From Nonomuraea gerenzanensis (GTDB taxonomy: Bacteria; Actinomycetota; Actinomycetes; Streptosporangiales; Streptosporangiaceae), in the NCBI RefSeq assembly GCF_020215645.1, contig NZ_CP084058.1:4526001-4590000 (forward strand): a DNA stretch of 64,000 bases, given 5' to 3'. Made by a program: the position numbers and the translations under genes. The notes under the pieces are model-generated. The model did not search any database, was not told where the DNA came from, and saw nothing but the letters and a program-made list of their open reading frames with translations. Shown piece by piece: positions 51,601-63,697 of this stretch (position 1 is its first letter; each line of letters begins with the position of its first letter).

Positions 51601-52599
51601 TCAGGCGCTCTCCGCCCGCAGCACCGTGTACGGCGCCAGCTCGCCCAGCCCCCGCACCGACAGCCGGTTCACCTCCCGCAGCCGGAACGCCCGATCGCCT
51701 TCGAGCTCCTCGGCGAGCTGCGGATCGGCCAGGATCGTTCCCGGCAGGGACAACGCGGTCAGCCTGCTGGCCAGGTTCACGGTGGTGCCGAACACGTCGC
51801 CCATCCGCCAGATCACCGGCCCGGAGGCCAGCCCCACCCGCAGCTCCGGCATGTCCTTGCCGCGCGCGTGCGTCTCCACCAGCCGCAGCGCGATCTCCGC
51901 CGCCACGTGCGCCTTGTCGCTCACGAACAGCACCGAGTCGCCCAGCGTCTTGACCACCCGCCCGCCGGAGGAGGTCACGATGTCGGCCGAGCGCCCCTCG
52001 AACCTGTCGACCAGCCTGGCCAGCTCGGCGCCGGTGATCTGCCTGCTCAGCCGGGTGAAGGCGACCAGGTCGGCGAAGCCGACGGCCAGCCGTACGGCGC
52101 TCATGTCCTGCTCGGCGATGCGCCCGGCGGCGGCGGCGAGCTGGCGCTGCCAGGCGTAGACCAGCAGCTTGGCCAGGTCGGGCACCACCCGCTCGGCCCG
52201 CCTGCGCCAGGCGCGCGGCCGCTCGGCCAGCGGCACGCCCGCGTTGTCGAGCGCCTCCGCGCCCAGCTCGGCCTGCGACTCGGCCAGCCTGGTCGTGGCC
52301 CGGCCCAGCGAGCGGGCGATGAGCAGCACGTGCGCCTCGTCGTAGACGCCCGAGGTCACCATGCCGAGCAGCGTCTTGAGCGCCTCGACGTCGGAGTCGG
52401 TGAACTCGACGGCGTCGTCGGGCACGTTGGCGAACCCCAGGGCACGCCAGAACCGCCGCGCGCGATAGACCGGCACCCCCGCCATCTCGGCGACCTGGTG
52501 ACTGGTGTATCGCCGCGGCTCGCGCAGAAAGGCTTCCGCCAGCCCGTCCCCGTCCACGCCCGCCACCTCGGCAACATAACACCCTGTGGGCCAGATCAC
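51601..52599 (-). CDS. Class III adenylate cyclase with N-terminal regulatory domain (Rv1264-like)
   Basis: 332 aa, soluble. N-terminal helical regulatory region (about 20-165) resembling the autoinhibitory domain of mycobacterial Rv1264, and a class III cyclase domain (about 172-325). Catalytic residues appear complete: metal Asp in FADLVAFT, Lys in VVKTLGDS with the second Asp, substrate Asp in GDVFG, and Asn/Arg in TTVNLASRLT. The Lys/Asp pair predicts cAMP as product. The start overlaps the GntR stop by 4 nt (ATGA). Confidence 0.85.
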   Translation of the reverse strand: MIWPTGCYVAEVAGVDGDGLAEAFLREPRRYTSHQVAEMAGVPVYRARRFWRALGFANVPDDAVEFTDSDVEALKTLLGMVTSGVYDEAHVLLIARSLGRATTRLAESQAELGAEALDNAGVPLAERPRAWRRRAERVVPDLAKLLVYAWQRQLAAAAGRIAEQDMSAVRLAVGFADLVAFTRLSRQITGAELARLVDRFEGRSADIVTSSGGRVVKTLGDSVLFVSDKAHVAAEIALRLVETHARGKDMPELRVGLASGPVIWRMGDVFGTTVNLASRLTALSLPGTILADPQLAEELEGDRAFRLREVNRLSVRGLGELAPYTVLRAESA

Positions 52600-53348
52600 T
52601 CCAACAGTGCCCTCAAGGCACTCCGCTCTCCTTCATCTACATACCCGGCGTAATAGTCATACATCGCTTTTCTCGACAAGCGCGCGGCCAGCGGGCCGTC
52701 GCCCGCCCGGATGGCGGCGATGACCTCCTCGTGGTGCCGGATGCTGCGCCGCATCAGCTGCGCGCGGTCCGGCGCCGCGGCGATGCGCTCCGAGATCAGC
52801 TTCAGCACGATGGAACGCACCACCTCGGTGCAGATCTGGATCAGCTTGTTGCCGCCGGCCCGCGCCACCGCGTCGTGGAAGGCCACGTCCGCCGCGCCGA
52901 ACGCGTTCTCGTCGCCGCCGGCCGCCACGCGCATGGCGGCGACCGCCTCGCCCATCTCGGCGAGCTGCTCCTCGGTGCGCAGCCGCGCGGCCAGCAGCAC
53001 CGCCGAGCCGTCCAGCACCATCCTGAACTGCACCAGCTCGCCCAGCGACAGCTCCGCCACCCTGGCCAGCGTGGTCATCGACTTGTGTAATGCCGCGGGC
53101 GAGAACGGCAGCACCTCCGCCCCGTTCGGATCACCGGGCCGCGAGCGCACCAGCCCGCGCGCCTGCAGCACCCGCAGCGCCTCGCGCACGGTGGACCGGC
53201 TGACCGAGAACTGCACCATCAGCTCCCGCTCGCTCGGCAGCCGCCCGCCAGGTGCCAGCGCGCCGCTCTCGACGGCCTCCTCGATCTGCTCCACGATCCG
53301 CTCGTAAGCGCGCACGGTACGCACCGGCTCGAAGCGCGGACCACCCAT
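52596..53348 (-). CDS. FadR-type GntR transcriptional regulator
   Basis: 250 aa. GntR winged helix (about 15-80: GALAPGGRLPSERELMVQFSVS, then RSTVREALRVLQARGLV) and an all-helical FCD effector domain (about 95-240) with metal-ligand residues in the pattern D..FH (AADVAFHDAVA) and H (IRHHEEVIAAI). ATG 53348 follows AAGGGGG. The perfect palindrome ACTGGTCAGACCAGT lies between it and the peptide transporter operon, so it is the obvious regulator of both and of itself. Confidence 0.9.
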   Translation of the reverse strand: MGGPRFEPVRTVRAYERIVEQIEEAVESGALAPGGRLPSERELMVQFSVSRSTVREALRVLQARGLVRSRPGDPNGAEVLPFSPAALHKSMTTLARVAELSLGELVQFRMVLDGSAVLLAARLRTEEQLAEMGEAVAAMRVAAGGDENAFGAADVAFHDAVARAGGNKLIQICTEVVRSIVLKLISERIAAAPDRAQLMRRSIRHHEEVIAAIRAGDGPLAARLSRKAMYDYYAGYVDEGERSALRALLE

Positions 53349-53391
53349 GCAAGCCCCCTTGACCCGAGCCGTCACCGGCTGGCAATGTGCG

Positions 53392-53412
53392 TAGCCTACT
53401 GGTCAGACCAGT
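53392..53412. promoter_or_regulatory. Shared divergent promoter core and GntR operator
   Basis: TAGCCTA (53392-53398) reads as a -10 hexamer on both strands (TAGCCT on plus, TAGGCT on minus). It abuts the perfect palindrome ACTGGTCAGACCAGT (53398-53412), which fits the TGGT-N3-ACCA pattern of FadR-type GntR sites. Binding would cover both start points. The same half-sites recur at 63713-63729. Confidence 0.75.
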
Positions 53413-53436
53413 GCACTAGCCAGGAGGCTGTACGAC

Positions 53437-54933
53437 ATGAGGCGAATCGGGATCTGGATCGCCGCCGGCGGTCTCCTGCTGGCCACGGCCGCCTGCGGAG
53501 GCGGCTCGGGCGGCGGTGGCGGCGGGGGCACGACGCCGAAGAGCGAGTCGCTGTCGGTCGGCGCGGTCGCCGAGCCCGCCAACCTCGACTTCACCTCCAC
53601 CGAGGGCGCCGCCATCCCGCAGGCCCTGCTCGTCAACGTCTACGAGGGCCTGGTCAAGCTCGACCAGAACGGGCAGATCGTGCCGCTGCTCGCCGAGAAG
53701 TGGGACGTGTCCGACGACAGGAAGACCTACACCTTCACGCTGCGCAAGAACGTGAAGTTCAGCAGTGGCGCGCCGTTCACGGCCGACGACGTGGTCTTCT
53801 CCCTCGACCGGGTGAAGAGCGACTGGAAGCTCAAGATCAAGACCCAGCTCGACGTCGTGGACAAGGTCGAGAAGAAGGACGACTCGACCGCCGTCGTCAC
53901 GCTCAAGCAGCCCAGCAACGGCTTCCTCTACTCGATGACCAGCAGGCTCGGCGCCATGTTCAGCCGCACCGGCGTCGCCGACCTGGCCAACAAGCCCGTC
54001 GGCACCGGCCCGTACGTGCTGGGCTCCTGGCGGCGCGGCGACTCCCTCCGGCTCGACGCCAACCCCTCCTACTGGGGCACCGAGCCGGCGCTGTCGTCGG
54101 TCACGCTGAAGTACTTCAAGGACGCCACGGCGATGAACAACGCGCTGCTGACCGGCGGCATCGATGTCATCTCCAGCGTGCAGGCGCCCGAGTCGCTGCA
54201 GCAGTTCGCCGACCCCAACCGGTTCGAGACCATCGAGGGCACCACCAACGGCGAGGTCGTGCTGTCGATGAACAACGGCCGCCCACCGTTCGACGACAAG
54301 CGCGTCAGGCAGGCCGTGCGGCACGCCATCGACCACAAGGCGCTGCTCGACACCGCCTGGGCCGGGCGCGGGCAGCTCATCGGCTCGATGGTGCCGCCCA
54401 CCGACCCCTGGTACGAGGACCGCACCGGCGACTACCCCTACGACCCGGCCAAGGCCAAGGAGCTGCTCGGCGGCAAGACGTACACCGTCAAGCTGCGCAT
54501 CCCGAACCTGCCGTACGCGGTCAACAGCGCCCAGGTCGTCAAGTCGCAGCTCGCCCAGGTGGGGATCACGGCCGAGATCGAGCCGCTGGAGTTCCCCGCG
54601 CGCTGGCTGGACCAGGTGTTCACCAAGGGCGACTACGACCTGTCCATCATCAACCACGTCGAGCCCCGCGACATGGGCATATTCGCCGACAAGTCGTACT
54701 ACTTCCGGTACGACAATCCGGAGTTCGGCAAGCTGCTCGCCTCCGCCGACGCGGGCACCGAGCAGGAGCAGGCCGACGACCTCAAGCAGGCCGCCAAGCT
54801 GCTGTCCGAGGACGCCGCCGCCGACTGGCTGTTCCTGTTCCCCAACCTGATCGTGGCGAAGAAGGGCGTCACCGGGCTGCCGAAGAACGCCATCGCGGAG
54901 TCCTTCGACTTCACCGCGCTCGCCAAGCAGTGA
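53437..54933 (+). CDS. Dipeptide/oligopeptide-type ABC transporter substrate-binding lipoprotein
   Basis: 498-aa family 5 binding protein (DppA/OppA type). Lipoprotein signal with Cys20 (ATAAC) and a Gly-rich linker, then LSVGAVAEPANLDFTSTEG, LAEKWDVSDDRKTYTF and the mature fold to the end. AGGAGG before ATG 53437. First of eight overlapping genes under the GntR operator. Confidence 0.92.
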   Translation: MRRIGIWIAAGGLLLATAACGGGSGGGGGGGTTPKSESLSVGAVAEPANLDFTSTEGAAIPQALLVNVYEGLVKLDQNGQIVPLLAEKWDVSDDRKTYTFTLRKNVKFSSGAPFTADDVVFSLDRVKSDWKLKIKTQLDVVDKVEKKDDSTAVVTLKQPSNGFLYSMTSRLGAMFSRTGVADLANKPVGTGPYVLGSWRRGDSLRLDANPSYWGTEPALSSVTLKYFKDATAMNNALLTGGIDVISSVQAPESLQQFADPNRFETIEGTTNGEVVLSMNNGRPPFDDKRVRQAVRHAIDHKALLDTAWAGRGQLIGSMVPPTDPWYEDRTGDYPYDPAKAKELLGGKTYTVKLRIPNLPYAVNSAQVVKSQLAQVGITAEIEPLEFPARWLDQVFTKGDYDLSIINHVEPRDMGIFADKSYYFRYDNPEFGKLLASADAGTEQEQADDLKQAAKLLSEDAAADWLFLFPNLIVAKKGVTGLPKNAIAESFDFTALAKQ

Positions 54934-55868
54934 TCCTGTACCTCGTCAAGCGGCTGGCGGTGCTGCTCGCGAGCATCGTCGTGGCCGCCGTGGCGGTGTT
55001 CGCGTTCATGGCGCTGCTGCCCGGCGACCCGGCCGAGATCGCGCTCGGCGTCAACGCCACCCCCGAGGCGGTGGCCGAGCTGCGCCGGCAGTTCGGCACC
55101 GACCGGCCGCCCGTCGTGCAGTTCCTCGACTGGTTCGGCGGGCTGGCGCAGGGCGACTTCGGCACCTCGTACGTGACCAGCGCCCCCATCGGCCCGCAGA
55201 TCTCCGAACGGCTCGCCGTCACGGCCGTGCTCGTGCTCGGCGGCATGGTCGTGGCCCTGCTGCTGGCCGTGCCGCTGGGCACGTTCGCCGCCGTGCACCA
55301 CCGCGACCCGCTCGGCGCGGCGATCAGCGCGGCCAGCCAGCTCGGCATCGCGATCCCCGCGTTCCTGGCCGGGATCCTGCTCGTGTTCGTCTTCGCGGTG
55401 CAGGCCCAGGTGCTGCCGTCCGGTGGCTACGTGCCCTTCGCCGACGACCCGGGAGAGTGGCTGCGCGGCCTGCTGCTGCCGTGGCTGTCGCTGGGCCTGG
55501 TGCAGGGCGCGGTGCTCACCCGCTACGTGCGCAGCTCCGTGCTCGACGTGATGCGCGAGGACTACCTGCGCACCGCCCGCGCCAAGGGGCGCGGCAGCAC
55601 CGGCGCGCTGTGGCGGCACGGGCTGCGCAACGCCGCCGTGCCCGTCGTCACCGTGCTCGGCCTGCAACTGGCCACGCTGCTGATCGGCGCGGTCGTGGTC
55701 GAGCGGGTGTTCGTCATCCCCGGCCTCGGCGACCTGCTGCTCAACGGCGTCGCCGGGCGTGACCTGCTGCTCGTCCAAGGCGTGGTGATGGTGCTGGTGG
55801 CGGCCGTGCTGCTGATCAACTTCGTGGTGGACGTGACCTACCACCTGCTCGACCCGAGGCTGCGATGA
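54930..55868 (+). CDS. DppB-type ABC transporter permease
   Basis: 312 aa, six membrane helices. DppB signatures: LPGDPAEIALG near the N-terminus, RQFGTDRPPVVQ, and the EAA loop EDYLRTARAKGRGSTGALWR (about 205-225). GTG 54930 overlaps the binding-protein stop by 4 nt. Confidence 0.92.
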   Translation: MILYLVKRLAVLLASIVVAAVAVFAFMALLPGDPAEIALGVNATPEAVAELRRQFGTDRPPVVQFLDWFGGLAQGDFGTSYVTSAPIGPQISERLAVTAVLVLGGMVVALLLAVPLGTFAAVHHRDPLGAAISAASQLGIAIPAFLAGILLVFVFAVQAQVLPSGGYVPFADDPGEWLRGLLLPWLSLGLVQGAVLTRYVRSSVLDVMREDYLRTARAKGRGSTGALWRHGLRNAAVPVVTVLGLQLATLLIGAVVVERVFVIPGLGDLLLNGVAGRDLLLVQGVVMVLVAAVLLINFVVDVTYHLLDPRLR

Positions 55869-56698
55869 GGGGCCGGGCCAACGCGGGCCTGCTGATCGGC
55901 GGCGCGCTCGTCGGGCTCGTCGTGCTCGCCGCCGTCGTCTCGTTCTTCTGGACGCCGCACGACCCCACCCTCGTGGACGCCGGCCGCAAGCTGCGCGAGC
56001 CGGGCGGCGGCTACCTGCTCGGCGCCGACAAGTTCGGCCGCGACACCTTCAGCCAGCTCATGGTCGGCGCCCGCACCACCCTCTACGTCGGCATCGTCGC
56101 GGTCGGCATCGCCGCCGTCATCGGCACCCCGCTCGGCGTGATCGCCGGGATGACGCCGCGCGGCTGGCTGTCGGAGCTGGTCATGCGGGTCAACGACCTC
56201 GTCTTCGCCTTCCCCGCGCTGCTGCTGGCCGTCATGCTCGGCGCGGTGTACGGGCCGGGCACGCTCACCGCGATGATCGCGATCGGGGTGGCCACGATCC
56301 CCGCGTTCGCCCGCGTGGCCCGCGCCGCCACGCTCCAGGTCATGGTGACCGACTACATCCTGGCCGCCAGGGCCGCCGGGCGGCGCCGGCCCGCCATCGC
56401 CGTGCGGCACGTGCTGCCCAACATCGGCTCCGTGCTCATCGTGCAGGCCTCGGTGTCGTTCGCGATCGCGATCCTGGCCGAGGCGGCGCTGTCGTTCCTC
56501 GGCTTCGGCACCCGCCCGCCGATCCCGTCGTGGGGGCGCATGCTGCAGGAGTCGCAGGAACTGCTCTTCTCCACCCCCCGCCTGGCGCTGTGGCCGGGGA
56601 TCGCGATCGCCGTGGCCGTGCTCGGCTTCAACCTCCTCGGCGACGGCCTGCGCGACTACCTCGACCCCAAGCTCAGGAGGATCCGTGCTGAAGGTTGA
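55865..56698 (+). CDS. DppC-type ABC transporter permease
   Basis: 277 aa. N-terminal helix (about 9-29), LLGADKFGRDTFSQLMVGART typical of DppC, EAA loop TDYILAARAAGRRRPAIAVR and FLGFGTRPPIPSWGRML. ATG 55865 overlaps the DppB stop by 4 nt. Confidence 0.92.
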   Translation: MRGRANAGLLIGGALVGLVVLAAVVSFFWTPHDPTLVDAGRKLREPGGGYLLGADKFGRDTFSQLMVGARTTLYVGIVAVGIAAVIGTPLGVIAGMTPRGWLSELVMRVNDLVFAFPALLLAVMLGAVYGPGTLTAMIAIGVATIPAFARVARAATLQVMVTDYILAARAAGRRRPAIAVRHVLPNIGSVLIVQASVSFAIAILAEAALSFLGFGTRPPIPSWGRMLQESQELLFSTPRLALWPGIAIAVAVLGFNLLGDGLRDYLDPKLRRIRAEG

Positions 56699-57599
56699 CG
56701 GCCTGACCGTCCGCGCGGGCACCGTCGAGCTGGTCCGCGACGTCTCCTTCGACCTCGCGCCCGGCGAGCGGGTCGGGCTGATCGGCGAGTCCGGCTCCGG
56801 CAAGTCGCTCACCGCGCTGTCGCTCATGGGCCTGCTCCCCGAGGGGGTCACCGCCTCCGGCCGGGCCAGGCTCGGCGACCGCGACCTCGTCGGCGTGCCC
56901 GAGAGCCGCATGAAGAGCCTGCGCGGCCGGGAGCTGTCCATGGTCTTCCAGGAGCCGATGACCGCGCTGAACCCGCTCATGCGGATCGGCGCCCAGGTCG
57001 CCGAGGCCATGACCCTGCACGGCCGGCCCCGCCAGGAGGCCCGCGAGCGGTCGGTCGAGCTGCTGGAGCGCGTCCGGCTGCCCGAGCCGGGCCAGATGGC
57101 GCGCGCGTACCCGCACCAGCTCTCCGGCGGCCAGCGCCAGCGCGTCATGCTCGCCATCGCCCTGGCCAACAACCCCGGGCTGCTCATCTGCGACGAGCCC
57201 ACCACCGCGCTCGACGTCACCGTCCAGAAGCAGATGCTCGACCTGATCGGCGAGGTCGCGCCCGCGCTGCTGTTCATCACCCACGACCTGGCCGTGGTCG
57301 CCTCGATGTGCGAGCGGGTCCTGGTCATGTACGGGGGCCGCGTCGTCGAGTCGGGCCCGCTGCGCGAGGTCTTCACCCGGCCCCGCCACCGCTACACGCA
57401 GGGCCTGCTCGCCGCCTCCCGGCTCACCCCGCGCGGCACCCGGCTGCCCACCATCGCCGGCAGCGTGCCACCGGCGGGCGGCTTCCCCAGCGGCTGCGTC
57501 TTCCGCAACCGCTGCCCGCACGCCACCCCCACCTGCGAGACGACTCCGGCGCTGACAGGAGACGGCCATGCCTACGCATGCTGGCACCCCGCTGATTGA
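56685..57599 (+). CDS. DppD-type ABC transporter ATP-binding protein
   Basis: 304 aa. Walker A GESGSGKSLT, Q-loop MVFQEPMTALNPLMRIG, signature LSGGQRQR, Walker B LLICDEPTTALDVT, His switch FITHDL. The C-terminal oligopeptide-transporter domain has a Cys-rich segment (GCVFRNRCPHATPTC) like the Fe-S-binding tail of DppD proteins. GTG 56685 overlaps DppC by 14 nt. Confidence 0.92.
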   Translation: MLKVDGLTVRAGTVELVRDVSFDLAPGERVGLIGESGSGKSLTALSLMGLLPEGVTASGRARLGDRDLVGVPESRMKSLRGRELSMVFQEPMTALNPLMRIGAQVAEAMTLHGRPRQEARERSVELLERVRLPEPGQMARAYPHQLSGGQRQRVMLAIALANNPGLLICDEPTTALDVTVQKQMLDLIGEVAPALLFITHDLAVVASMCERVLVMYGGRVVESGPLREVFTRPRHRYTQGLLAASRLTPRGTRLPTIAGSVPPAGGFPSGCVFRNRCPHATPTCETTPALTGDGHAYACWHPAD

Positions 57600-58368
57600 G
57601 GCCGCCGGGCTGAACCGGGTCTACCGCCGCCCGCGTACCTCGCTCACCAGGCCGGGAGCCGCCGTGCACGCCCTGCGCGACGTCTCCCTGACCGTACGGC
57701 GCGGCGAGCGCCACGGCATCGTCGGCGAGTCGGGCTCCGGCAAGTCCACCCTGCTGCGCCTGCTCTGCGCCCTCGACCAGCCCACCAGCGGCAGCATCCG
57801 GTTCGACGGCCAGGAGATCACCGGCAGGCCCGAGCGCCGGCTGCGCTTCCTGCGCGAGAACCTCCAGATCGTCTTCCAGGACCCGATGAGCTCGCTCGAC
57901 CCGCGCATGCGCGTGCGCGACCTCGTCGCCGAGCCGCTGGCCGCCCTCGGTCTGCCCGCCGGCGGCCGGGTCGCGGAGCTGCTCGACGCGGTGGGGCTGC
58001 CCGCGTCGGCCGCCGACCGGTACCCGCACCAGTTCTCCGGCGGCCAGCGGCAGCGCATCGCCATCGCCCGCGCGCTCGCCCCTCGCCCGAAGGTGCTGGT
58101 CGCCGACGAGCCCGTCAGTGCCCTGGACGTCTCCGTGCGAGGGCAGATACTCAACCTGCTGGCCGACCTCGTGGACGAGCTGGGGCTCACGCTCGTGTTC
58201 GTCTCGCACGACCTGTCCGTGGTGCGGCACGTGTGCGAGACGGTCGCGGTCATGAGCAGGGGCGAGATCGTGGAGACCGGGCCCGTGGACGACGTCTGGG
58301 CCGCGCCCGCCCACCCGTACACGCGGGCGCTGCTTTCGGCCGTACCGACTCTGGAGGGACTGCTGTGA
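57568..58368 (+). CDS. DppF-type ABC transporter ATP-binding protein
   Basis: 266 aa. Walker A GESGSGKST, IVFQDPMSSLDPRMRV, FSGGQRQRIAIARAL, VLVADEPVSALDVS, FVSHDLSVV. Slightly short: it lacks the usual C-terminal oligopeptide domain. Overlaps DppD by 32 nt. Confidence 0.92.
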   Translation: MPTHAGTPLIEAAGLNRVYRRPRTSLTRPGAAVHALRDVSLTVRRGERHGIVGESGSGKSTLLRLLCALDQPTSGSIRFDGQEITGRPERRLRFLRENLQIVFQDPMSSLDPRMRVRDLVAEPLAALGLPAGGRVAELLDAVGLPASAADRYPHQFSGGQRQRIAIARALAPRPKVLVADEPVSALDVSVRGQILNLLADLVDELGLTLVFVSHDLSVVRHVCETVAVMSRGEIVETGPVDDVWAAPAHPYTRALLSAVPTLEGLL

Positions 58369-59543
58369 TCGAAGTCGACGCCGCTGGAGTGGTGGAGTTC
58401 ACACAGGCGCTGGTGCGCGTCCCCAGCACCAACGACCCGGCGCGCGGCCGCAGCGAGCGGCCCGCCGCCGAGCTGGTCGAGGCGCGGATGCGGGAGTGGG
58501 GCTGGGACCCGGTCGTGGACGAGGCCGCGCCCGGCCGGCCGAACGTCGTCGCCGTCGTCGAGGGCGGCGGCGGGCCGGGGCCCACCCTCATGTTCGAGGG
58601 GCACACGGACGTCGTCACCGAGGGCGACCTGTCCACCTGGACCGTGGACCCGTTCGGCGGGGAGATCCGCGACGGCAGGCTGTGGGGGCGGGGCAGCGCC
58701 GACATGAAGTCCGGCCTGGCCGCCATCCTCTACGCCACCCGCGCCCTGCAGCTGGCGGGAACGTTCCCCGGCCGCATCAAGGTGTGCGCGCTGGCCGACG
58801 AGGAGGGCCTCATGCTCGGCGCCCACCACTTCGTCTCCACCGGCCTGGCCGCCGACGTGGACGGCGCCATCGTCGCCGAACCCGAGGCGGGCGAGATCTG
58901 CGCCGTGGCCAAGGGCGCGCTGCGGCTGCGCGTGGACCTGCACGGCCGGATGGCGCACGGCGCGATGCCGCAGCACGGCCGCAACCCCATCGCCGCCGCC
59001 GGCACCCTGCTCGTCGGGCTGCGCTCGCTGCAGGAGGACCTGCAGCGCCGCCACCCCGCCCACGAGCACCTCGGCGAGGTCTACGTGACGCCGACCGTGC
59101 TCCAGGCCGGCTCCGAGGAGCAGGTCAACGTGATCCCAGCCGTCGCCTCCGTCTTCGTGGACGTGCGCACCGTGCCGGGCGCCGACCACAAGGAGATCGC
59201 CGACCGGGTGGCCGCGCTGGCCTGCGCCGAGGGCGTCTCGGCGGAGGTGACGGTGCTGGTGGACCGGCCGCCGGTGGACGTGCCGCGCACGGACCCGGTG
59301 GTCGCCGCGCTGGCAGCCGCCCACCGCGCCGTCACGGGCGAGGAGCCGGTGTACGGCGGGGTGCCGGGGACGACGGACGGGACCGTCCTGACGCACTGGG
59401 GCGGGGTGCCGTCCGTGGTGTACGGGCCCGGCGGGAAGTGGATCGCGCACCAGGCGGACGAGTTCGTGGAGGTGGCGGAGATCGTGCGGTGCACGCGGGT
59501 GTTCGCCGAGGCCGCCAGGCGGTTCCTGAACGGGGAGCACTGA
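58365..59543 (+). CDS. M20-family metallopeptidase / deacylase
   Basis: 392 aa, ArgE/DapE/CPG2 superfamily. Zinc ligands: His in FEGHTDVV (about 74), Asp in GRGSADMKSG (about 106), the Glu pair in ADEEGLMLGAH (about 141), EP (about 168) and a late His. Expected to hydrolyse imported peptides or N-acyl amino acids. GTG 58365 with GGAGGG upstream; overlaps the DppF stop. Confidence 0.9.
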   Translation: MIEVDAAGVVEFTQALVRVPSTNDPARGRSERPAAELVEARMREWGWDPVVDEAAPGRPNVVAVVEGGGGPGPTLMFEGHTDVVTEGDLSTWTVDPFGGEIRDGRLWGRGSADMKSGLAAILYATRALQLAGTFPGRIKVCALADEEGLMLGAHHFVSTGLAADVDGAIVAEPEAGEICAVAKGALRLRVDLHGRMAHGAMPQHGRNPIAAAGTLLVGLRSLQEDLQRRHPAHEHLGEVYVTPTVLQAGSEEQVNVIPAVASVFVDVRTVPGADHKEIADRVAALACAEGVSAEVTVLVDRPPVDVPRTDPVVAALAAAHRAVTGEEPVYGGVPGTTDGTVLTHWGGVPSVVYGPGGKWIAHQADEFVEVAEIVRCTRVFAEAARRFLNGEH

Positions 59544-60700
59544 TGGCGCTCGTCCTGCGCGCCGGGGAGACCAACTCGCTGGTGGACGTGGCGGGGCTGC
59601 GCGTGGGGCACGCCCGGCGCGTCGGCGGCGGCTTCCGCACCGGCACCACCGTCGTCCTCGCGCCCGCCTCCGGGGCGGTGGCGGGGGTGGACGTGCGGGG
59701 GGCCGCGCCCGGCACGCGGGAGACCGAGCTGCTGGATCCGCGGAACCTGGTGGAGCGGGTGCATGCCGTGGTGTTGTCGGGCGGGAGCGCGTTCGGGCTG
59801 AGCGCCGCCTGCGGGGTGATGGGGCGGCTGGCGGACGCGGGGGTGGGGTTCCCGGTGGACGGTGGGGCGGTGCCGATCGTGCCGGCGGCGGTCATCTTCG
59901 ACCTGGGCCGTGGCGGCGCCTTCCGCGCCGTCCCGGACGCCACCCTCGGCGCCGCCGCCTACGACGCGGCCTGCGCTGTCTCCGACCACGCCACCTCCGA
60001 CCCGGCTGCCTTCGACCGGGCCGCAGCCGTCCGAACACCCCACCCCGAGAGGACCTCAGCCCCGGACGGCGAGGCGGACGCGGCAGGCGGGAAGCGGGAC
60101 GGCGCCATCACCTGCCACCGGGGCCCGGCACGAGGGTCCGTCGGCGCGGGAACCGGCGCCGTGGCGGGCGGCCTAGCGGGAGGGGCCGGCACCGCCAGCG
60201 CCGTCCTCCCCGACGGCACCACCGTGGCCGCCCTGGCCGTGGTCAACGCCATGGGCTCCGTCCTCGACCCCCACGACGCCACCCTCGCCGGCGCCAGATA
60301 CGGCCTGCCGGGCGAGTTCGACCACCTCAGCCCTCCGGCCCCGGCCGAGTCCAGCGCCTGGACCCCCACCCCCGCCCCCTCCTTCAACACCACGATCGGC
60401 GTCGTCGCCACCGACCGCACCCTCACCAAGGCCCAGTGCGGCAAGCTCGCCGCCGTCGCCCACGACGGCCTGGCCAGAGCGATCCGCCCGGCCCACACCA
60501 TGACCGACGGCGACACCATCTTCGGCTTGGCCACCTGCGCCCGCCCCGCCCCCGCCCAGGACACCTTCCAGGACGTCCTCGCCGCCGCGGCCGACGTGTT
60601 CAGCCGCGCCGTGGCCGACGCCGTCCTGACCGCCACCGGACGCGCGGACGCGCCCGCCTACCTCGACGTCTTCCCGAGCGCACTGCGGAGCCGACCATGA
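59543..60700 (+). CDS. P1-family N-terminal-nucleophile aminopeptidase (DmpA/BapA-like)
   Basis: 385 aa. P1 family: NSLVDVAGLRVGH start, VVLSGGSAFGLSAACGVM, and the self-cleavage site N282-T283 in NTTIGVVATD. T283 aligns with the Ser250 nucleophile of DmpA, so the chain should split into alpha and beta parts. Family members release D-amino acids or beta-amino acids from peptide N-termini. An Ala/Asp-rich insert lies before the cleavage site (about 150-200). Starts in TGATG. Confidence 0.88.
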   Translation: MALVLRAGETNSLVDVAGLRVGHARRVGGGFRTGTTVVLAPASGAVAGVDVRGAAPGTRETELLDPRNLVERVHAVVLSGGSAFGLSAACGVMGRLADAGVGFPVDGGAVPIVPAAVIFDLGRGGAFRAVPDATLGAAAYDAACAVSDHATSDPAAFDRAAAVRTPHPERTSAPDGEADAAGGKRDGAITCHRGPARGSVGAGTGAVAGGLAGGAGTASAVLPDGTTVAALAVVNAMGSVLDPHDATLAGARYGLPGEFDHLSPPAPAESSAWTPTPAPSFNTTIGVVATDRTLTKAQCGKLAAVAHDGLARAIRPAHTMTDGDTIFGLATCARPAPAQDTFQDVLAAAADVFSRAVADAVLTATGRADAPAYLDVFPSALRSRP

Positions 60701-62154
60701 CCTTCGAGCAGCACTGGCCCACCGGCCTGCCCACCGGCCTGCCCACCGGCCTGCCCACCGGCCTGCCCATCGGCCCCGGCTGGGTGGACACCGGCGACAC
60801 CACCGACGTGACGTTCCCCTACGACGGCTCCACGGTGGCCGCCGCTCCGCTCGGCACGGCCGCGCTCGCCGCCAGGGCCCTGGACGAGGCGCTCGCCGTA
60901 GCCCCCGCGACGGCGGCGCTGCCCTCGCACGCCCGCCGCGCCGCGCTCATGGGCGCCCACGACGCGCTGCGCGACAGGCGGGCGGAGTTCGAGCACCTGC
61001 TGGTGCTGGAGACCGGTAAGCCGCTGGTGGACTGCCGGGTCGAGGTGGCCAGGACGCTCCTCACGCTCGCCACCGCCGCCGAGGAGGTGGCCCGGCTGCA
61101 CGGCGAGACCGTCCCGCTCGACCTGCTGCCGTCAGGGGAGGGCCTGATCGGCTTCTGGACGCGGCGGCCCATCGGGGTCGTCGTCGGCATCACGGGCTTC
61201 AACTATCCCCTCCTCCTGGCCGCCCACAAGCTCGCACCGGCGGTCGCGGCCGGCTGCCCGGTGATCGTCAAGCCGGCCCCGGCGACCCCGCTGGCCACGC
61301 TCTGGCTCGCGCACCTGCTCAGGGACGCGCTGCCGCCCGCGGCCGTGCAGGTCGTCACCGGCGGCGTCGAGGTCGGCCGCACGCTGGTGGAGGACCGGCG
61401 GATCGGCGCGGTGTCGTTCACCGGCTCCGCCGCCGCGGGGCACGCCATCGCGCGGGCCGCCGCTCCCACCAAGGTGCTGCTGGAGCTGGGCTCGAACGCG
61501 GCCCTCGTGGTCGCGGCGGACGCCGACCTCGAGGCCGCCGCCGACGCGGTCGTGCGCGGCGGCTACTACGCCTCCGGCCAGGCGTGCATCTCCGTGCAGC
61601 GGGTGCTGGTCGAGGAGCAGGCGGCGGAGGCGTTCCTGCCGCTGCTGGCCGACCGGGTCAAGAACGTCACCGTCGGCGACCCCCGCCTGCCGGGGACGCG
61701 TGTCGCCCCGCTGATCGACGAGGCCGCGGCGGAGCGCGTACTGGAGTGGATCGCCGCCTCCGGGGCGGACGTGGTCGCGGGCGGGCACCGCGACGGCCGC
61801 GCCATCGCGCCGACGGTGCTGTCCGGCGTGCCGGACGGGGCCGCCGCCTGGGACGAGGAGATCTTCGGGCCTGTCGTGTGCGTACGCCGGGTGCCCGACC
61901 TGGACGCCGCCTTCACCGCGGTCAACAGGTCCAGGTACGGCCTGCACGCGGCGGTGTTCACGCGTTCGCTGGCCACGGCGTTCGCGGCGATCGACCGGAT
62001 CGAGGCGGGCGGTGTGGTGGTCAACGACGTGCCGGGGTTCAGGGCCGACAACATGCCGTACGGCGGGGTGAAGGACTCGGGGGCGGGACGCGAGGGGCCG
62101 CGGTTCGCGATCGAGGAGCTGACCGTGACCAGGATGGCGATCATCCGCCCGTAG
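60697..62154 (+). CDS. Aldehyde dehydrogenase family protein
   Basis: 485 aa. NAD(P)-dependent aldehyde dehydrogenase with catalytic C297 (SGQACISVQR) and general base E263 (LELGSN), ITGFNYP cofactor loop and FTGSAAAG. The N-terminus carries a PTGL tetrapeptide repeated four times (12-bp DNA repeat, 60715-60774). Oxidises an aldehyde, presumably arising after transamination or deamination of the liberated residue (inference). Last gene of the operon, 4-nt overlap; a strong hairpin follows. Confidence 0.9.
   Translation: MTFEQHWPTGLPTGLPTGLPTGLPIGPGWVDTGDTTDVTFPYDGSTVAAAPLGTAALAARALDEALAVAPATAALPSHARRAALMGAHDALRDRRAEFEHLLVLETGKPLVDCRVEVARTLLTLATAAEEVARLHGETVPLDLLPSGEGLIGFWTRRPIGVVVGITGFNYPLLLAAHKLAPAVAAGCPVIVKPAPATPLATLWLAHLLRDALPPAAVQVVTGGVEVGRTLVEDRRIGAVSFTGSAAAGHAIARAAAPTKVLLELGSNAALVVAADADLEAAADAVVRGGYYASGQACISVQRVLVEEQAAEAFLPLLADRVKNVTVGDPRLPGTRVAPLIDEAAAERVLEWIAASGADVVAGGHRDGRAIAPTVLSGVPDGAAAWDEEIFGPVVCVRRVPDLDAAFTAVNRSRYGLHAAVFTRSLATAFAAIDRIEAGGVVVNDVPGFRADNMPYGGVKDSGAGREGPRFAIEELTVTRMAIIRP
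60715..60774 (+). repeat. 12-bp in-frame tandem repeat in the aldehyde dehydrogenase N-terminus
   Basis: Five near-identical CTGCCCACCGGC units (exact at 60727, 60739 and 60751; variants at both ends) encode the PTGL repeat. Confidence 0.9.
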
Positions 62155-62160
62155 GGGCCG

Positions 62161-62236
62161 GTGCCCGGAGCCCGGGCCGCCCCAGGTCAAGGAGTGCTTC
62201 TGCGACCTGGTGCGGGGCGGTCCCGGGTCCGGGCAC
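62161..62236 (+). terminator. Very long stem-loop after the peptide operon
   Basis: The 28-nt arm 62161-62188 pairs almost fully with 62204-62236 (a few bulged bases), closing a 15-nt loop. It begins 7 nt after the aldehyde dehydrogenase stop. Its length is unusual for a simple terminator, but that is the likely role. Confidence 0.75.
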
Positions 62237-62242
62237 GGCTGC

Positions 62243-62261
62243 TGACCGGTCGTGCCGGTCA
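62243..62261 (-). terminator. Hairpin downstream of the DUF4142 gene
   Basis: Perfect 7-bp stem TGACCGG/CCGGTCA with a 5-nt loop, 17 nt after the stop of the minus-strand gene at 62278. Confidence 0.5.
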
Positions 62262-62277
62262 GGTCATGCGGATCGGG

Positions 62278-62877
62278 CTACATCTCGGCGCGGACCGCGC
62301 GGAGATGGTGGCGGATCACCGGGGCGCTGTCGCGCGCCAGGTCCTTCACCCAGTTGGAGTGCCCGCGCCGCAGCTCCCGCTGCCCCAGCCAGAGGGCGTG
62401 CTCGTGCGCGTCCACCTGGAGCCGCAGCCAGGCGCGGTCGAAGCGGTGACCGGACCTGGACAGCACCGCTCGGAGATCGCGGCGCTGCTCGGCGCTGGGG
62501 GAACCGGGGAGGCGGACGTCGAGCCGGTCCGCGACGCCGCGCAGGCGCGCGTCCAGCTTCCGGTGGTCGCGGATCAGCCGCCAGGCGATGCCGCGGACGT
62601 CCCGGTCACGGGACTTGCTCAGCGCCGCCTTGCCCGCGGCGATCTCGGCCAGGTGGCCGCGATGCGCCGCCCTGAGATAGGCGACGTCCTGGCGTGAGGC
62701 GTGCAACGCCACCTCGGACGCGCCGGCGGTGGCGTCGGTGCGCCAGCCCGCCTGGGCGCCTGCCTGGGTCTGGATCGGGGCGGTCGCCTGCGTCTGAGCC
62801 TGGGCGGCCGCCGGGGTCATGGTCAGCGCCAGCACGGCCGCGAGGCCCGCGGGTGCTAACTTCCGTGCTGTTCTCAT
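62278..62877 (-). CDS. Secreted DUF4142 (ferritin-like helical) protein
   Basis: 199 aa. Signal peptide about 1-26 (ends AAAQAQ), a Gln/Thr/Ala-rich linker, then four helices (about 55-199) with AHRGHLAEIAAGKAALSKS, ARRLIRDHRKLD-like and DAHEHALWLGQRELRRG segments typical of DUF4142. Function unknown; possibly envelope stress. ATG 62877 has AAAGGAGG. Lies between the peptide operon and the SDR gene, without the GntR site. Confidence 0.82.
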   Translation of the reverse strand: MRTARKLAPAGLAAVLALTMTPAAAQAQTQATAPIQTQAGAQAGWRTDATAGASEVALHASRQDVAYLRAAHRGHLAEIAAGKAALSKSRDRDVRGIAWRLIRDHRKLDARLRGVADRLDVRLPGSPSAEQRRDLRAVLSRSGHRFDRAWLRLQVDAHEHALWLGQRELRRGHSNWVKDLARDSAPVIRHHLRAVRAEM

Positions 62878-62935
62878 GAGTCCCTCCTTTCCTGGGACCC
62901 GTGCCCGCTGCCCTATTCGGTCGGAAGTATTCGCC

Positions 62936-63697
62936 TCAATTCGGCGGATCGAAACGGCCGTCCACGGCGGTCCAGCCGCCGTCCACGTAGAGCACGGAGC
63001 CGGTCACGAAGCTCGCCGCGTCGCCGGCCAGGTAGACCACCGCCCCGGCCAGCTCCTCGGCCGTCGCCCACCGGCCGAGCGCGCTCTTGGCGGCGTAGGC
63101 GGCGTACCAGCCGGGATCGTCCTTGATCTGCTTGGTCAGCGGCGTCTCCACCACGCCGGGCGCGATGGCGTTCACCCGCACCCCGTGCGGGCCGAACTCG
63201 GCGGCGGCCGTGCGCAGCAGCTGCACCAGCCCGGCCTTCGTGGCCGAGTAGACGCCCTGCCCCGGCTCGGTGACGGTGGCCCTGATGGAGGCGAAGCCGA
63301 TGATCGAGCCGCGGCCCCGCTCGACCATGCCGGCGCCGAACGCGCGTACCAGGTCGAAGGAGGCCCGCAGGTTCAGCCCCACCACGCGGTCGAACTCCTC
63401 GCCCGAGTAGTCGAGCAGCCGCTTGCGCACGTTCGTGGCCGCGGTGAAGACCAGCACGTCAGCGGGCTCCTCGGCGGCCAGCGCGCGCACCGCCCCGGCG
63501 TCCAGCACGTCGATCAGCCTGGCGTCGCCGCCGCAACCGGCCGCGGTCTCCCGCGCGGCGGGCAGGTCGCGGTCGGCGCACACCACCGACGCGCCGTGCG
63601 CGGCCAGCGCCAGCGCCGCCTCCCTGCCGATCCCGCTCCCCGCCCCGATCACCACGGCCCGCCGCCCGTCCAGGCGGAACAGCGCGTCATATCCCAT
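62936..63697 (-). CDS. Short-chain dehydrogenase/reductase (SDR)
   Basis: 253 aa. Classical SDR: GAGSGIG nucleotide loop (about 18-24), NAG replaced by TAATN, catalytic S/Y/K in GFASIRAT, YSATKAG, and APGVVETP. NAD(P)-dependent oxidation or reduction of an alcohol or ketone. ATG 63697 is preceded by a leaderless-type TAGGGT box and the same palindrome that controls the peptide operon, so it probably belongs to that regulon. Confidence 0.9.
   Translation of the reverse strand: MGYDALFRLDGRRAVVIGAGSGIGREAALALAAHGASVVCADRDLPAARETAAGCGGDARLIDVLDAGAVRALAAEEPADVLVFTAATNVRKRLLDYSGEEFDRVVGLNLRASFDLVRAFGAGMVERGRGSIIGFASIRATVTEPGQGVYSATKAGLVQLLRTAAAEFGPHGVRVNAIAPGVVETPLTKQIKDDPGWYAAYAAKSALGRWATAEELAGAVVYLAGDAASFVTGSVLYVDGGWTAVDGRFDPPN

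Follow-up and report, generated by a model that had tools for sequence, protein, structure and literature searches.

A 64,000-nucleotide stretch of Nonomuraea gerenzanensis DNA (contig NZ_CP084058.1, positions 4,526,001 to 4,590,000; the window) contains an eight-gene operon and a nearby SDR oxidoreductase gene that probably form a two-transcript regulon for breaking down pantothenate (vitamin B5) and its amides with cysteamine. The operon encodes a solute-binding protein (SBP), a DppBCDF-type importer, an M20 metallo-deacylase, a P1-family hydrolase and an aldehyde dehydrogenase (ALDH), and it is divergent from a gene for a GntR regulator. Computation revealed the regulon, its conservation and, in other lineages, the linkage of its M20, SDR and P1 families to genes for a pantothenate-type transporter and for enzymes that act on pantoate; the catalytic steps, the direction in which GntR regulates and its effector are inferred from these sequences. 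Pantothenate or pantetheine is proposed as the substrate because the same families are linked to PanT, to PanB and PanE, to a 2-oxoacid dehydrogenase complex and to a beta-decarboxylating dehydrogenase. A first-pass annotation of this DNA had suggested an unusual peptide with a D- or beta-residue, or an N-acylated one. The linkage points to pantothenate or pantetheine instead of a D- or beta-residue peptide, and the terms 'N-acylated' and 'beta-residue' were near the mark because pantothenate is an N-acyl beta-alanine.

The genes of the operon overlap at all seven junctions, by 1 to 32 nucleotides. Its predicted operator and the one before the SDR gene are each perfectly palindromic about a central base that is free to vary, differ only at that base and lie 10,316 bp apart, in agreement with the near-identical palindromes described at the divergent promoter and before an SDR gene 10.3 kb away. 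When the 12.07-Mb, 3-contig genome was scanned for the 15-bp site, two exact copies were found, both at this locus. Allowing one mismatch added one site and allowing two added 47, all of which were treated as background. The flanks (1.5 kb) of the one-mismatch site and of seven two-mismatch sites (L003-L010; G and L numbers are our handles for genomes and loci) held no homologue of ten regulon proteins, and a wider stretch at the one-mismatch site (L119) held nothing but a 39% ATPase. Rarity alone is a weak argument, because a reversed control pattern likewise has two exact matches in the genome; position and conservation decide. Within the window, the two matches at ≤3 mismatches do not exceed the shuffle mean of 2.79, and both are exact.

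Conservation within the genus is extensive. Among 36 Nonomuraea genomes, the source included, a count of exactly two perfect sites is the rule (29 genomes); two genomes carry three, one carries a single site and four carry no perfect copy. All 63 exact sites of the 31 other site-bearing genomes lie before SBP (31), before SDR (30) or before a P1 paralogue (2), with none elsewhere, and every operon site has GntR on its opposite side. The arrangement GntR-site-SBP-DppBCDF-M20-P1-ALDH with a separate site-SDR recurs in 23 of the 23 genomes that have both sites on one stretch (P1 was called only in part in one of them, L079). As the distance between sites ranges from 9.5 kb (G006) to 20.5 kb (G479), both sites have been kept while the intervening DNA changed. 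Mean column identity is 97% inside 34 distinct operon sites and 96% inside 33 distinct SDR sites, compared with 75-78% and 50-66%, respectively, in the 60-bp flanks; the central operator base varies. M20 matches at 83-89% identity were seen in three Nonomuraea records.

Genomes with incomplete sets were also informative. No M20 match at E 1e-60 was found in the site-free genomes G013, G030 and G019 (63% complete). The remaining site-free genome, G028 (apparently Nonomuraea candida), keeps SBP-Dpp-M20 and SDR, and tblastn detected no GntR, P1 or ALDH in its 21-kb record. Its operon operator carries one substitution, and no site within three mismatches precedes SDR; regulator loss together with site decay is as predicted for a cognate regulator-operator pair. 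G008 and G516 fit less neatly: GntR and the operon site are retained, P1 and some or all of ALDH are missing, and there is no SDR site. Site conservation, the placement of all 63 sites and the co-loss in G028 argue for the operon and SDR being one regulon under GntR, acting through two operators, as the first-pass annotation had put it. With the operon overlaps, operator position and conservation taken together, its description of the operon and the divergent regulator is confirmed more strongly than it was claimed.

The regulator has the domains of the FadR subfamily, a GntR helix-turn-helix and FCD, both above cut-off. Its nearest solved relative is 2di3, identified as LldR in passages of PMC4494728, which also give TKGT-3 nt-ACMA as the FadR-subfamily operator pattern. 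The sequence TGGT-CNG-ACCA fits this palindrome with its 3-nt spacing and stands beside its own gntR gene. FadR/FCD regulators such as LldR have the same domains and a TGGT-N3-ACCA operator, with different target genes. An alignment of 14 GntR homologues, 13 of them from exact-site loci, contains an invariant residue run in the helix-turn-helix. On the basis of co-conservation and co-loss, GntR may well act through both predicted operators. The 15-bp motif is not exclusive to it and is probably common to other FadR-type regulators, because the sites in G517 and G529 (L152 773, L153 1937) lack regulon genes: each has a weak GntR homologue (36% and 28%) and none of the other query proteins.

Those two genomes came from an order-wide scan of 200 genomes, in which four genomes from outside the genus (G321, G037, G517 and G529) have exact sites that depart from the regulon pattern. 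(Genes at the loci were called with our own codon-bias script, which leaves gene starts and some of the short genes uncertain; for six loci with low GC or odd composition a plain list of open reading frames was used, and others were read by tblastn.) Among M20-bearing genomes outside the genus, six of ten have an exact site; none was found in G090 and G329, nor in the 3.4 and 3.9 kb readable in G158 and G053 (L136, L137). An exact site with a GntR homologue accompanies SBP-DppBCDF-M20-P1-ALDH-SDR in one run in G067, Iso_dh-SBP-DppBCDF-M20-ALDH-SDR in G141 and G221, where Iso_dh denotes a tartrate/isopropylmalate-type dehydrogenase, and M20-ALDH-SDR-DUF3311-SSF symporter in G409 and G128. The same catabolic genes adjoin an exact site and a GntR homologue in Micromonospora chalcea and two Streptomyces. 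In Acidiferrimicrobium the site precedes SBP-DppBCDF-M20-P1-ALDH-SDR-GntR-Iso_dh, and in G062 it lies between SBP and Iso_dh-M20-P1 on a short contig without GntR. Because SDR stands inside the operon under the same site in other families, it belongs to the same pathway. Three of the four enzyme classes of the proposed pathway are present in the window (Iso_dh is absent), and all four are present in L142, L143 and L168, the Iso_dh of the last scoring as leuB.

M20 and amidase look interchangeable. G321 reads GntR-site-SBP-Dpp-amidase-SDR, with an amidase in the place of M20; in G069 the run SBP-DppBCDF-P1-ALDH-SDR has a divergent amidase in front of it and no site. Where M20 is absent, the amidase was recognized by PF01425 in L149 and by blastp label in L265 and L266. 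G037 has an exact site with GntR (48%) and two weak SDRs (38%, 33%).

Additional genes in some clusters bear on two other readings. Degradation of a different acylated metabolite (beta-lactam side chains, acyl-homoserines or nylon-type oligomers) would be in line with the presence of a penicillin amidase gene at L172 and L174, both Streptomyces clusters, and with a nylon hydrolase being the second-best relative of P1. Among the Pfam-scanned neighbour genes, however, penicillin amidase is confined to these two clusters, and such a substrate does not predict linkage to PanT, PanB and PanE, so we regard it as very improbable. Recycling of cell-wall peptides or amino sugars is more improbable still. 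A GH3 glycosidase gene does lie by the M20-P1 set of L111 and L113 (two genomes of another family), but SDR and ALDH are missing from the gene calls of both, and no GH3 was found among scanned neighbours of site-bearing loci, where most unlabelled neighbours fell outside the scan.

Orthology was examined with quick tree builds for both M20 and SDR. The regulon and PanT-linked M20s fall into one clade (44 of 113 rows) with local Shimodaira-Hasegawa (SH) support of 100 in FastTree, and the regulon and PanT-linked SDRs likewise fall into one (38 of 49 rows) with an SH-aLRT of 99 in IQ-TREE.

The connection to pantothenate comes from relatives of these enzymes. An SDR profile run on 396 genomes of the phylum matched 24 at E ≤1e-75, and all were inspected. 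In 14 of them an ECF S component adjoins SDR, with M20 on its other side in 13. The other ten are the source genome, three with the Dpp or symporter types (G069, G128 and G758), and G630, G650, G680, G739, G817 and G891, which showed no S component in readable sequence, some of it cut by contig ends. A profile of six S components searched against all PDB chains (E ≤10) gave two matches only, 4rfs_S (1.3e-11) and 6zg3_C (1.9e-4), both of which are the pantothenate transporter ECF-PanT according to parts of PMC7755397 and PMC11521937. When the predicted fold of an S component (mean pLDDT 74) was compared by Foldseek, PanT entries ranked first and second (1.4e-6, 1.3e-4). The S component beside orthologous M20-SDR is thus like ECF-PanT (4RFS, 6ZG3) in both sequence and fold. 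Passages of PMC7755397 name R95, N131 and W64 of PanT as important for pantothenate; R95 and N131 align with R83 and N117, which are invariant among the S components. As a control, the 64 more distant of 80 M20 loci (L181-L244) were checked for an ECF S component at E 1e-12, and none showed one; two, from Opitutales, carry SDR and P1.

The ECF-PanT transporter is absent from the Nonomuraea regulon, which has a Dpp-type importer instead. That importer is what one would look for if a D- or beta-amino acid peptide were taken up, cleaved by M20 and P1 and its products oxidized by SDR and ALDH, and P1 does share a family with an L-aminopeptidase/D-esterase (1e-33) and, weakly, with BapA (8.6e-4). 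Against such a peptide, other lineages have a PanT-type ECF transporter or an SSF symporter in place of Dpp, Pfam showed no aminotransferase, deaminase or racemase among the Nonomuraea regulon genes, and linkage to Iso_dh, PanB and PanE would be left unexplained. We consider a D- or beta-peptide substrate improbable.

Genes that could serve downstream carbon metabolism lie near some of the clusters. E1-alpha, E1-beta and E2 of a 2-oxoacid dehydrogenase lie ≤5 kb from M20 in six of the 14 PanT-type genomes (G900, G580, G608, G778, G749 and G759); they are absent from G660 and G797 despite enough flank, and the others have little flank. One E1-alpha was closest to a Thermus 2-oxoacid enzyme, followed by human 2-oxoisovalerate dehydrogenase and then pyruvate dehydrogenase, a modest preference. 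In G141, G221 and G062 an Iso_dh gene follows the operator, that of G221 being closest to tartrate dehydrogenase/decarboxylase, and all five genomes with an Iso_dh copy at the regulon have a second copy elsewhere. A Roseiflexaceae locus (L177, Chloroflexota) has adjacent genes for P1, PanT, the ECF module, M20, PanB and PanE, with PanB and PanE above curated cut-offs, and L178 carries the same genes from the ECF ATPase on. PanT, PanB and PanE lie near M20s of the same clade in other lineages.

The Roseiflexaceae operon raises the question of whether pantetheine and pantothenate, or their beta-alanine, are recycled for coenzyme A and not fed to carbon metabolism. The L177 operon may itself serve salvage, because no close SDR exists in its genome (best match 1.7e-67), and cleavage of pantothenate and its rebuilding from the beta-alanine have been reported in Actinobacteria, according to passages of PMC10393543. 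For the regulon as a whole, salvage or turnover is unlikely: SDR, ALDH and in some cases Iso_dh share an operon or operator in several actinobacterial families, and the 2-oxoacid dehydrogenase complex near M20 in the PanT-type genomes would complete a full carbon route.

How well do the individual enzymes suit catabolism of pantothenate? A PDB search with P1 ranked ThnT best (E 6e-81) and nylon hydrolases next (4e-41 and weaker), followed by a chain named L-aminopeptidase/D-esterase (1e-33; DmpA type by name), with BapA the weakest of 18 matches (8.6e-4). P1 has PF03576 and the N-T autoproteolysis motif (NTTIGVVATD), its NTT aligned with that of ThnT. The comparison with DmpA and BapA made in the first-pass annotation therefore holds at the level of the family, but not as closeness, where both are far behind ThnT. 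Parts of PMC6097109 describe ThnT, of thienamycin biosynthesis, as a biosynthetic enzyme that acts on pantetheinyl-carbapenem, where it cuts the carbapenem-bound pantetheinyl group down to cysteamine, unlike the catabolic role that we propose for P1, the hydrolysis of pantetheine or a related amide. Three Nonomuraea genomes have a third perfect site, which lies before a paralogue of P1 that carries an apparent signal peptide (L095 8238, L096 7989 and L150 7438); by eye, the paralogue of L150 also has an apparent C-terminal membrane anchor. The linker between the two conserved halves of P1 (59981-60130) is highly variable in Nonomuraea, where called P1 proteins range from about 315 to 476 aa. 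We know of no transporter, M20 or SDR partner for ThnT.

M20 scores 250.8 bits against TIGR01910 (cut-off 217.6), which makes it a DapE/ArgE-type deacylase and narrows the earlier view of an enzyme that deacylates or cleaves small peptides to its deacylase side. Residues H80, D82, D113, E146/E147, E174 and H362, which we presume to be its metal ligands, are invariant in 12 aligned sequences. This protein is proposed to be the pantothenase that hydrolyses pantothenate to pantoate and beta-alanine. The YxxxK motif of SDR is invariant in 11 aligned sequences. A FabG or sugar dehydrogenase label for SDR was rejected as generic, all 25 NCBIfam models shown being below cut-off, and among the 25 models shown for ALDH no equivalog was above cut-off.

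A route for bacterial degradation of pantothenate was reportedly described in the 1960s; the names attached to the pathway are Goodhue and Snell, Nurmikko, and Airas. Its activities (Enzyme Commission numbers 3.5.1.22, 1.1.1.106, 1.2.1.33 and 1.1.1.84) were described in pseudomonads. Hydrolysis of pantothenate yields beta-alanine and pantoate, HOCH2-C(CH3)2-CH(OH)-COOH; 3,3-dimethylmalate is a malate-type substrate of the Iso_dh family, and its decarboxylation gives 2-oxoisovalerate. The enzyme classes of the regulon fit this pathway stepwise (amidohydrolase, alcohol dehydrogenase, aldehyde dehydrogenase, beta-decarboxylating dehydrogenase), to which the Nonomuraea regulon adds a Dpp importer, an Ntn hydrolase and a GntR regulator. 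We propose the following scheme: 1) GntR would sit on two FadR-type operators near start codons and repress the operon and SDR until released by an effector, probably one of the pathway's carboxylic acids; 2) the Dpp-type importer would take up a pantothenate-containing amide, candidates being pantetheine, pantothenate or a peptide-like conjugate; 3) P1 would cleave the beta-alanyl-cysteamine amide to give pantothenate, which M20 would split into D-pantoate and beta-alanine; 4) pantoate would be oxidized at its primary alcohol by SDR, and the resulting 4-dehydropantoate would be taken to 3,3-dimethylmalate by ALDH; and 5) a beta-decarboxylating dehydrogenase, which belongs to the regulon in other families and is unlinked in Nonomuraea, would form 2-oxoisovalerate for consumption by a branched-chain oxoacid dehydrogenase. 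The order envisaged at the outset, import followed by two amidohydrolases and oxidation through SDR and ALDH, is supported.

Several observations weigh against this assignment. PanT, PanB and Iso_dh are all missing from the Nonomuraea regulon (the nearest Iso_dh homologue, 48%, is unlinked at C1:5579274), and the substrate has been assigned by transfer from relatives. The 14 PanT cases represent one family and are not independent. In the Foldseek comparison a riboflavin S component is third and close behind (2.8e-4), and PanT W64 aligns with F60 in the S components. No close ALDH was seen in PanT-type clusters, and ALDH is absent from L144 and L145. The top NCBIfam model for E1-alpha is pyruvate dehydrogenase, below cut-off, and the Iso_dh of L168 and of L171 passes the leuB cut-off. 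ThnT is reported, in passages of PMC6097109, to be active only on carbapenem-attached pantetheine, and the P1 of L177, besides lacking a close SDR partner, is nearer to nylon hydrolases than to ThnT. In the trees, the SDR clade excludes the SDR of L171 (Micromonospora), and the M20 clade excludes the M20s of G630 and the Opitutales loci. Streptomyces-type symporters match MctP better than panF, both far below cut-off, and Opitutales symporters match panF, also below cut-off. The sulfatase, penicillin amidase and GH3 neighbours of some clusters are not accounted for by the pathway. As for regulation, exact sites beside GntR-like genes are found without regulon genes (G517, G529), and G516 keeps GntR while its SDR has no exact site.

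Breakdown of pantothenate has been known as an activity for some sixty years. Passages of a 2023 paper (PMC10393543) state that the identity of pantothenase is unknown, and among the matches listed in the open PMC literature, as titles and starts of abstracts, no gene was named for pantothenase, pantoate 4-dehydrogenase or dimethylmalate dehydrogenase. On balance, we think it somewhat more likely than not that the genes described here are the first assigned set for complete bacterial pantothenate catabolism, comprising an M20 pantothenase (replaceable by an amidase), SDR, ALDH and, in some lineages, a dimethylmalate dehydrogenase, with a ThnT-like hydrolase feeding in pantetheine and secreted P1 paralogues under the same operator extending the pathway outside the cell. 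With a candidate gene named for every step, and an operator and regulator predicted, the question can now be tested directly in culturable actinobacteria. If the assignment is true, many genes labelled 'M20 peptidase', 'P1 peptidase' or SDR would be annotated differently, and it bears on which organisms use up vitamin B5 in soil and other communities.

Table 1. Positions of the predicted operators and regulon genes in the window.
Feature	Position	Strand	Basis
GntR (FadR/FCD subfamily) regulator, divergent from operon	52596..53348	-	PF00392 and PF07729 above cut-off
Predicted operator 1, ACTGGTCAGACCAGT, between GntR and operon, 24 bp upstream of SBP start codon	53398..53412	.	palindrome search, genus conservation
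SBP of dipeptide/oligopeptide-type ABC importer	53437..54933	+	PF00496
DppB-type permease	54930..55868	+	PF00528, PF19300
DppC-type permease	55865..56698	+	PF00528
DppD-type ATPase	56685..57599	+	PF00005, PF08352
DppF-type ATPase	57568..58368	+	PF00005, PF08352
M20 metallo-deacylase (DapE/ArgE type), proposed pantothenase	58365..59543	+	PF01546, TIGR01910
P1/S58 Ntn-hydrolase, ThnT-like; proposed hydrolase of pantetheine or related amide	59543..60700	+	PF03576, NTT nucleophile motif
ALDH, proposed 4-dehydropantoate to 3,3-dimethylmalate step	60697..62154	+	PF00171
SDR oxidoreductase, proposed D-pantoate 4-dehydrogenase	62936..63697	-	PF13561
Predicted operator 2, ACTGGTCCGACCAGT, 16 bp upstream of SDR start codon	63714..63728	.	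palindrome search, genus conservation

The second operator falls just beyond the end of the region first delimited (63697). For gntR the ATG start was used; an alternative GTG start is possible at 53375. The N-terminus of SBP looks lipoprotein-like by eye. Import of nickel or glutathione was rejected as its function, the top NCBIfam matches, NikA and GsiB, being far below cut-off. A short in-frame tandem repeat (PTGL) lies close to the N-terminus of ALDH (60718-60774), and a small protein with an apparent signal peptide is encoded between ALDH and SDR (62278-62835, minus strand). Downstream of gntR by 29 bp, on the same strand, is a cyclase-like gene (51601-52566, minus strand), perhaps co-transcribed with it; cyclase-like homologues occupy the same place in L070, L074 and L078 (PF00211 in L070), and a different gene does so in L072.

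Elsewhere in the source genome, a second SBP-DppBCDF-P1 set without a perfect site (L120 2450-14613; G000:C1 about 2893450-2905610) is followed further on by ALDH- and GntR-like genes (P1 33%, ALDH 37%, GntR 31%) and is possibly another amide-catabolic set. In Streptomyces, a protein of the penicillin-amidase family is added at L172 15586-19556 and L174 15318-17642, with an amidohydrolase too in one of them. In Micromonospora chalcea, a formylglycine-generating-enzyme-type protein and a sulfatase lie near the cluster (L171 6183-6965 and 17055-19355).

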